This document shows positions 7,497 to 8,411 of a stretch of 64,000 bases of DNA, one piece after another. The notes beneath the pieces are model-generated. The model was not told the origin of the DNA, searched no databases, and saw only the letters and a program-made list of their open reading frames with translations. Position 1 is the stretch's first letter. Every line of letters begins with the position of its first letter. The position numbers and the translations under genes were made by a program. Source of the DNA: Thermodesulfobacteriota bacterium (GTDB lineage Bacteria; Desulfobacterota; Thermodesulfobacteria; Thermodesulfobacteriales; Thermodesulfobacteriaceae); NCBI GenBank assembly GCA_030578315.1, contig JAUQQL010000001.1, forward strand, positions 1 to 64,000, in the 5' to 3' direction.

Positions 7497-7799
7497 GTGA
7501 AAAAAACTATTCAACCACAAATTGTGATCAAACCTTATAAAAAAAAAGTAAAGAAGAAAAGGAAACTTATTATAGGGATTTTGTTTATTTGTTTGATTCT
7601 TAGTATAAGTATTTATTTGTTTTTGAGTTGGATTGTTAAAAAAGAGTATAAGGAATTGGAAAGATTAAAAAAAGAAAACAGTTTTTTGAAAAGAGAAATT
7701 AAAGAGCTTGTAAGTTCAAATTCAAGTTATGAAAAAATATTAAGAACTAAATATGGCTTCATTAAAGAAGGGGAAAAAATAATAATATATTCTAAATAA
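7497..7799 (+). CDS. FtsB/DivIC-like septum formation initiator family protein
   Basis: Basic N-terminus, single TM, coiled coil and ...LRTKYGFIKEGEKIIIY ending typical of the family. Confidence 0.75.
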   Translation: MKKTIQPQIVIKPYKKKVKKKRKLIIGILFICLILSISIYLFLSWIVKKEYKELERLKKENSFLKREIKELVSSNSSYEKILRTKYGFIKEGEKIIIYSK

Positions 7800-7825
7800 T
7801 TTTGTAAAAAATTTTTTTAATAAAA

Positions 7826-7921
7826 GGGGGCCCAAATACCGCCTGCTGGGGTTGGGTTTTCCCTATTAAAAAGGCGGAATACAAATACCCCAGCCTGAAC
7901 TATGTGAAAAACATAGTTCAG
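7826..7921 (+). promoter_or_regulatory. Structured RNA element in ribH 5' leader (pseudoknot plus hairpin)
   Basis: CCGCCT 7839-7844 / AGGCGG 7872-7877 crossing with GCTGGGGT 7845-7852 / ACCCCAGC 7887-7894; internal GGGTTTTCCC; adjacent hairpin CTGAACTATGT-GAAAA-ACATAGTTCAG 7895-7921; not coding. Confidence 0.6.
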
Positions 7922-7940
7922 TAAATTATGTAGGAAATTT

Positions 7941-8411
7941 ATGAGATACATAGTGTTAGAGGGATTTTATGAAGGAGAAGGATTCAGATTTGGAATAGTG
8001 GTTAGTAGGTTTAATATATTTATTACTCAAAGGCTTTTAGAGGGAGCTTTAGATGTTTTTAGAAGACACAAAGTTTCTGAGGAAAATATTTGTATTGTTT
8101 GGGTACCAGGAGCTTTTGAAATACCTTTGGTAGCTAAAAAACTTGCAGAAACTAAAAATTTTGATGCCATTGTATGTTTGGGTGCTATTATAAGAGGAGC
8201 TACTCCTCATTTTGAATACATAGCTGCTGAAGCTTCCAAGGGTATTGCTCAAGTCATGTTAGAAACGGGTATCCCGGTTATTTTTGGAATTCTTACCACA
8301 GATACCATAGAACAAGCTATTGAAAGGGCAGGCACCAAAGCAGGAAATAAGGGAGCTGAAGCAGCTTTAGCAGCTCTAGAAATGGTTAATCTTTTAAAGA
8401 AAATAGTTTAG
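7941..8411 (+). CDS. ribH: 6,7-dimethyl-8-ribityllumazine synthase
   Basis: [70 protein letters not shown]. Confidence 0.96.

Follow-up and report, generated by a model that had tools for sequence, protein, structure and literature searches.

Short leader RNAs built as H-type pseudoknots, with an A-rich third loop and a position near the ribosome binding site (RBS), are known from the preQ1 and SAM-II riboswitches. Among transposon-associated RNAs, the TnpB proteins of IS200/IS605 elements have AT-rich TAMs, and TldR is an exapted TnpB system in which protein and guide RNA are both retained and work in trans on DNA. Host exaptation of a part of a TnpB system, namely of the TldR type, is described in PMC13418256. 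In the IS607 element ISFba1 the reRNA, derived from RAGATH-18, lies wholly 3′ of the tnpB gene and contains two pseudoknots, of which PK2 pairs the bases that close the scaffold next to the guide and is needed for the RNP; the TAM of this TnpB is AGGAG, and Shine-Dalgarno (SD) sequences are not mentioned in that article (PMC11061315). The AGGAG TAM of the RAGATH-18/ISFba1 TnpB (PMC11061315) is itself SD-like. Known omega-RNAs overlap the end of the tnpB coding sequence (PMC11061315).

Judged from sequence comparison, the block at positions 7826–7921 of the window belongs to a structured RNA family that is unlisted in Rfam, and it is one of the stand-alone members, which have no TnpB. By the window we mean the whole stretch of 64,000 nucleotides that was analysed (genome G000); all features given below are on its forward (+) strand. 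The decisive context, invisible from the window alone, is that TnpB-like mobile elements carry a homologous RNA at their 3′ end. This mobile form resembles the ISFba1 reRNA in lying wholly 3′ of the TnpB gene and in its two pseudoknots, one of which would likewise pair the final scaffold bases next to the guide, and its SD-like left flanks recall the AGGAG TAM. It differs from that RNA in having no RAGATH match in Rfam and a different sequence core; moreover, the window copy is without TnpB and without the guide-adjacent pairing, and no tnpA was seen in the thermophile elements. As with the omega-RNA of ISDra2-type IS200/IS605 elements, a tnpB element whose protein carries the RuvC triad has a pseudoknotted RNA as its 3′ end. 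In contrast to these elements the RNA begins approximately 45 nt past the tnpB stop codon and the flanks are GGAGG-like. The putative recruitment of one component of a TnpB system by the host would be shared with TldR, but in the present case there is no protein, and the RNA is part of the leader of the gene presumed to be its target. Like preQ1 and SAM-II leaders, the window RNA is a small pseudoknotted leader which has an A-rich third loop and lies near an RBS; unlike them it has an extra helix A which crosses both stems, its SD lies outside the pseudoknot, and its downstream genes have no common theme.

The window RNA probably sits inside a divIC-ribH-pgk gene run. A DivIC/FtsB-like gene (septum formation initiator, 7497–7799; Pfam DivIC, E 1.4e-9) stops 26 nt before the RNA, the lumazine synthase gene ribH (7941–8411; Pfam PF00885, E 4e-63) lies downstream, and pgk downstream of ribH was confirmed with Pfam. 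Within the block the strands follow in the order A5′, B5′, C5′, A3′, B3′ and C3′, and then comes hairpin D; helix A crosses B and C, and helix B crosses C. Helix A is formed by GGGGGCCCA (7826–7834) and TGGGTTTTC (7853–7861), with several G-U pairs in the window copy and an alternative bulged pairing that extends to the CCC at 7861–7863. The unpaired conserved AAATA (7834–7838; columns nearly invariant in alignments A2 and A3) stands ahead of helix B, which pairs CCGCCT (7839–7844) with AGGCGG (7872–7877). Helix C pairs GCTGGGGT (7845–7852) with ACCCCAGC (7887–7894). The gap between the 5′ strands of B and C is 0 or 1 nt, and their 3′ strands are joined by an A-rich loop of about 10 nt (AATACAAATA, 7878–7887) with nearly invariant A columns (A3). 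Taken alone, helices B and C would thus correspond to the classical H-type geometry, with the loop at 7878–7887 in what appears to be the third-loop position. Hairpin D (CTGAACTATGT-GAAAA-ACATAGTTCAG, 7895–7921) has its arms at 7895–7905 and 7911–7921. The fold z-score of the block is −5.0, and none of 200 shuffles was equally stable.

The initial annotation had placed both strands of helices B and C, the hairpin arms and the ribH ATG (7941) exactly where they are given here, and the motif AAATACC does occur twice, at 7834 and 7883, as it had noted. Its assignment of the segment GGG-TTTT-CCC to the loop of the second stem has to be given up, the segment being the 3′ strand of helix A, which had been overlooked.

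That this structure is selected can be seen from its homologues. In 55 stand-alone homologues the pairs of helices B and C are formed in 98% of the cells, and double changes occur in 6 of their 12 pairs (31 cells), which was equalled by 0 of 500 shuffles. Shifting the partner strand abolishes the pairing signal of B and C in a sliding test over the same 55 sequences. The 3′ strands of both helices covary with their partners among homologues; helix C has double changes in 6 of 7 pairs, while the core of helix B is almost invariant and compensated as GCGCC with GGCGC in four copies. Because the two helices are jointly conserved with compensatory changes, both must be maintained, and they cross. 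For the remaining helices the strands of 70 stand-alone homologues were swapped. Helix A averages 9.5 bp when each strand is matched with its native partner, compared to 5.6 bp with a swapped one, and hairpin D 8.6 bp compared to 5.6 bp. The 5′ strand of helix A occurs in 65 different versions among these 70 copies, each matching its own 3′ strand; in the sister species the two strands are altered to GGAGGACCA / TTGGTCCTTCC with the pairing preserved. The pseudoknot plus hairpin RNA proposed at the outset is therefore borne out, and the conservation and compensatory changes named there as a check are present in related genomes. We also observed non-Watson-Crick covariation between columns 7838 and 7878 (before CCGCC and after GGCGG, A3), where G occurs with G in 21 out of 21 stand-alone copies and A mostly with A; this suggests a tertiary pair capping helix B. 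An HDV-like ribozyme was considered and rejected: B, C and the inner helix succeed one another much like P1/P2/P3, but helix A begins 5′ of helix B and the loop ahead of the C 3′ strand is without an invariant C.

When 99 relatives were searched at the nucleotide level, the sister species (G003) was the only one with the block before ribH; copies before other genes occurred in G001, G006, G010, G013, G033, G064 and G076. With a core covariance model, 395 genomes of the phylum yielded 22 matches of at least 47 bits and one at 32 bits, followed by noise; a single model built on the stand-alone and the mobile form retrieved both, and in the phylum search its matches were well separated from noise by score. 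A pattern scan was run over 85,000 species genomes, and its results, being the matches listed, are a lower bound. At least 156 distinct copies were collected from thermophiles (Thermodesulfobacteriota, Aquificota, Thermoanaerobacterales and others), and among the matches listed single genomes hold up to at least 19 copies before very different genes. Full-length copies, again among the matches listed, occur in Thermoanaerobacter, Caldanaerobacter, Fervidicola, Thermovorax, Thermosediminibacter, Caldicoprobacter, Carboxydothermus, Caldisericum, Aquificaceae and Hydrogenothermaceae; carriers of the full motif in this list are thermophilic lineages, as judged by organism name. Pattern-only matches in mesophiles such as Brevundimonas, Prevotella and Novosphingobium contained no AAATACCCC half and were discarded as fortuitous. 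The viral contigs scanned gave 3 matches, in none of which the rest of the motif was found. No Rfam family matches the window at gathering level, and none matches the stand-alone or mobile homologues even at E≤10, RAGATH-18 included. One weak RAGATH-22 match, far under its cut-off, was seen elsewhere in L186. No account of this RNA was found in open-access papers. The support for the family is sufficient for a new Rfam entry.

To delimit the two forms, the 156 copies were sorted by three independent features, i.e. the extra 5′ strand (GGGGCTATGG), the 3′ ACCAGG and a tnpB tail. Both extra strands are present in 67 copies, and a tnpB tail was detected in 47 of these and undetected in 20. Seventy copies, including the one in the window, have neither strand and no tail. 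One strand only occurs in 19 out of 156, and a tail with neither strand in none of the 156. A position directly 3′ of tnpB is accordingly true of 47 homologous copies and not of the window copy. In 62 of the 70 stand-alone copies an ORF starting with ATG follows at no more than 95 nt from helix C, the median distance being 40 nt.

In multi-copy Thermoanaerobacterales genomes the RNA is preceded at this distance by an ORF of about 480 codons, which matches the NCBIfam models TIGR01765 (E 4e-23) and TIGR01766 (E 5e-16), both above cut-off. The RuvC triad D220/E283/D353 is invariant in this TnpB-like protein and the zinc finger is absent. Its predicted structure is of low confidence (pLDDT 57), so its best matches, Cas12 effectors, merely agree with the HMM result. 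In G001, of the same genus as the window genome, this tnpB adjoins the hisI copy of the RNA. The copies carried by transposons very probably serve a thermophile TnpB clade as guide-RNA (omega-RNA-like) scaffolds, where the term guide RNA for the mobile form would follow from position and analogy. The CUAUGG of the mobile 5′ strand can pair with CCAGG, the last bases ahead of the host gene; as both strands barely vary, this pairing has no covariation support. These guide-adjacent strands are present in the 67 mobile copies and absent in the window copy. Four loci (L169, L119, L194, L322) carry MITE-like deletion derivatives, in which the left end and the RNA right end are kept and the full tnpB is gone.

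Copies of the mobile form are located at SD sequences. The left ends of approximately 22 copies (read in L108, L110, L119, L123, L124, L177, L184, L187, L192, L297, L298, L339 and L345 among others) directly follow AAGGAGG-, AAAGGAGG- or AGAGGAGG-like flanks, nearly all of the GGAGG type. At the other side, a start codon lies 0–13 nt past ACCAGG in 50 of 67 right ends, mostly at 6–8 nt, and the flanks joined across the element read SD-spacer-ATG. Insertion thus appears to be SD-targeted, with the right end ACCAGG apparently acting as a substitute RBS at RBS distance. Targeting of this kind may also apply to the RAGATH-18/ISFba1 branch of TnpB. In L177 a T-box leader (110–341, + strand; Rfam, 109 bits) ends just before the left end of the TnpB element at 378, so the element may split the T-box from its gene.

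A similar arrangement can be recognised at ribH. Congeners without the RNA have a ribH SD of the AAAAGGGGG or AAGGAGG type directly ahead of the ATG. In the window AAAAGGGGG (7822–7830) is found at the 5′ edge of the RNA, overlapping helix A, and in the sister species this edge reads TTAAAGGAGG; newer AGGA or AAGG sequences stand closer to the ATG, in the window an SD-like AGGA at 7932–7935, 5 nt ahead of it. Since such a sequence is found at the 5′ edge in both genomes, the RNA lies between the probable former ribH SD and the AUG. Two of ten ribH leaders read in the genus carry the RNA. The lysA leader in G033 appears to have a similar former-SD left edge, and an SD-like left edge (at least 5/7) occurs in 26 of 70 stand-alone copies compared to 5/70 and 11/70 in controls. 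One must keep in mind that such edges stand out clearly in just a part of the stand-alone copies and that a G-rich helix A could mimic them.

Between the window genome and its sister species the ribH leader RNA is 89.6% identical, compared to 50–58% in the flanking spacers and 52% at fourfold-degenerate sites of ribH. Phosphomannomutase-type leaders from three genera are 79–85% identical in the RNA versus 30–35% at fourfold sites. The mean identity of random stand-alone pairs is 68%; the lysA pair G033/G034, with 70%, is no better than this and was therefore not taken as proof of vertical descent. Judged by these identities, purifying selection acts on the ribH and phosphomannomutase-type leaders in genomes that gave no match to this nuclease.

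We consider it likely that the window block is a TnpB guide-RNA-like scaffold which came to lie between the former ribH SD and the AUG and was retained as a cis-acting 5′ leader. The TnpB elements are found between the SD of a gene and its start codon, where their right end, the RNA, comes to abut the AUG. In the lineage of the window only the RNA would remain between the former SD and ribH. It would no longer be a working guide RNA, a loss that is expected because the guide-adjacent pairing is missing in the stand-alone form, and would persist as a structured leader at the 5′ end of ribH, on which it would act in cis. The direction of evolution from transposon to leader is the most likely one, and it is favored by the former SD flanking the leader RNA just as it flanks the mobile element; a reverse origin, in which TnpB elements captured a host leader RNA, could also be envisaged. 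The chances are about even for the wider proposal that the scaffold was freed from its nuclease many times and became a TnpB-independent host leader across several thermophile phyla, by way of an SD-inserting element that supplies a substitute RBS.

A hint towards the effect of such a leader arises from the genes behind it. Stand-alone copies precede lysA, a phosphomannomutase-type gene, fusA, rplU, rplI, rpoA, hfq, metG, radA, ssb and many others (named partly by eye from translations), which have no pathway in common; this disfavors a metabolite switch and favors a general effect on the mRNA. The stand-alone copies show what is generally expected of a cis-acting leader, namely conserved structure, sense orientation and a short distance to start codons. 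Most likely the leader supports translation start or protects and stabilises the 5′ end of the mRNA, constitutively rather than by ligand sensing. The cis-regulatory option of the initial annotation is retained in view of the sense-strand position before genes and the purifying selection. A riboswitch specific for ribH or flavins, which it had also considered, is unsupported because the identical type of RNA precedes many unrelated genes and other ribH leaders of the genus are without it.

Distinctly less probable, yet to be taken seriously, is a widespread riboswitch or protein-binding leader for a global signal (a translation factor, temperature, an ion or a nucleotide messenger) that was captured later by TnpB elements to become their 3′ RNA. 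The conserved unpaired A-rich stretches and the almost invariant helix B would fit such a sensor, as would the copies ahead of the translation genes fusA, rplU and rplI and the retention at the same gene across genera. In a subset of copies a TATAAT box 8–20 nt upstream would make the RNA the very 5′ end of the mRNA, although promoter scores overall hardly differ from control. On the other hand, the downstream genes share no pathway, the occurrence at a given gene is patchy even within a genus, as the ribH leaders illustrate, and no alternative fold hiding the SD was recognised.

The stand-alone copies might still act as guide RNAs, used in trans by a Cas12-like protein or a TnpB, with the beginning of the downstream gene as the guide. 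The core scaffold is indeed common to the transposon form, and G421, G422, G423 and G431 hold stand-alone copies together with tnpB. We regard this as improbable. The guide-adjacent strands are missing in 70 out of 70 stand-alone copies, which is part of the group definition and is accompanied by the absence of tnpB. TIGR01765 was unmatched in 21 of 32 carrier genomes searched, and the single-contig genomes G010 and G013 carry the RNA and gave nothing with TIGR01765, TIGR01766 or a full-length TnpB protein as queries, while the positive controls G001 and G423 matched. The tnpB of this clade is also absent from the window genome and from G003, the assembly of which is 93% complete. Two weak TIGR01766 fragments of another TnpB clade are found in the window genome (C24:49449-49625 and C43:1759-1986); given these fragments and the completeness of G003, another protein could serve the stand-alone RNA.

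Still less credible is the view that the copies are inert, recently inserted transposon ends, i.e. MITE-like debris. Their multiple and dispersed occurrence and the deletion derivatives of the mobile form in the four loci named above point in this direction, but the stand-alone copies have no left end, and the compensatory changes together with a conservation far above fourfold sites largely refute it for ribH in G000 and G003. An FMN riboswitch, a different RNA family already known, or an intrinsic terminator separating two operons can practically be dismissed at the sensitivity used, in spite of the riboflavin gene downstream and the strong hairpin D, as no Rfam model, FMN included, is matched, the RNA is not confined to riboflavin genes, and hairpin D is followed by TAAATTATGTAGG after 7921 and not by the U-tract of a terminator.

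Being short, the proposed leaders lend themselves to direct tests in thermophiles that can be cultured. Their arrangement implies that an insertion element can occupy the gap between RBS and gene without silencing the gene. Domestication of TnpB has so far been known from the protein side (TldR, Cas12), and a protein-free guide scaffold serving as a leader would be a second route. If true, the RNAs of mobile elements would be tied to the origin of cis-regulatory RNAs.
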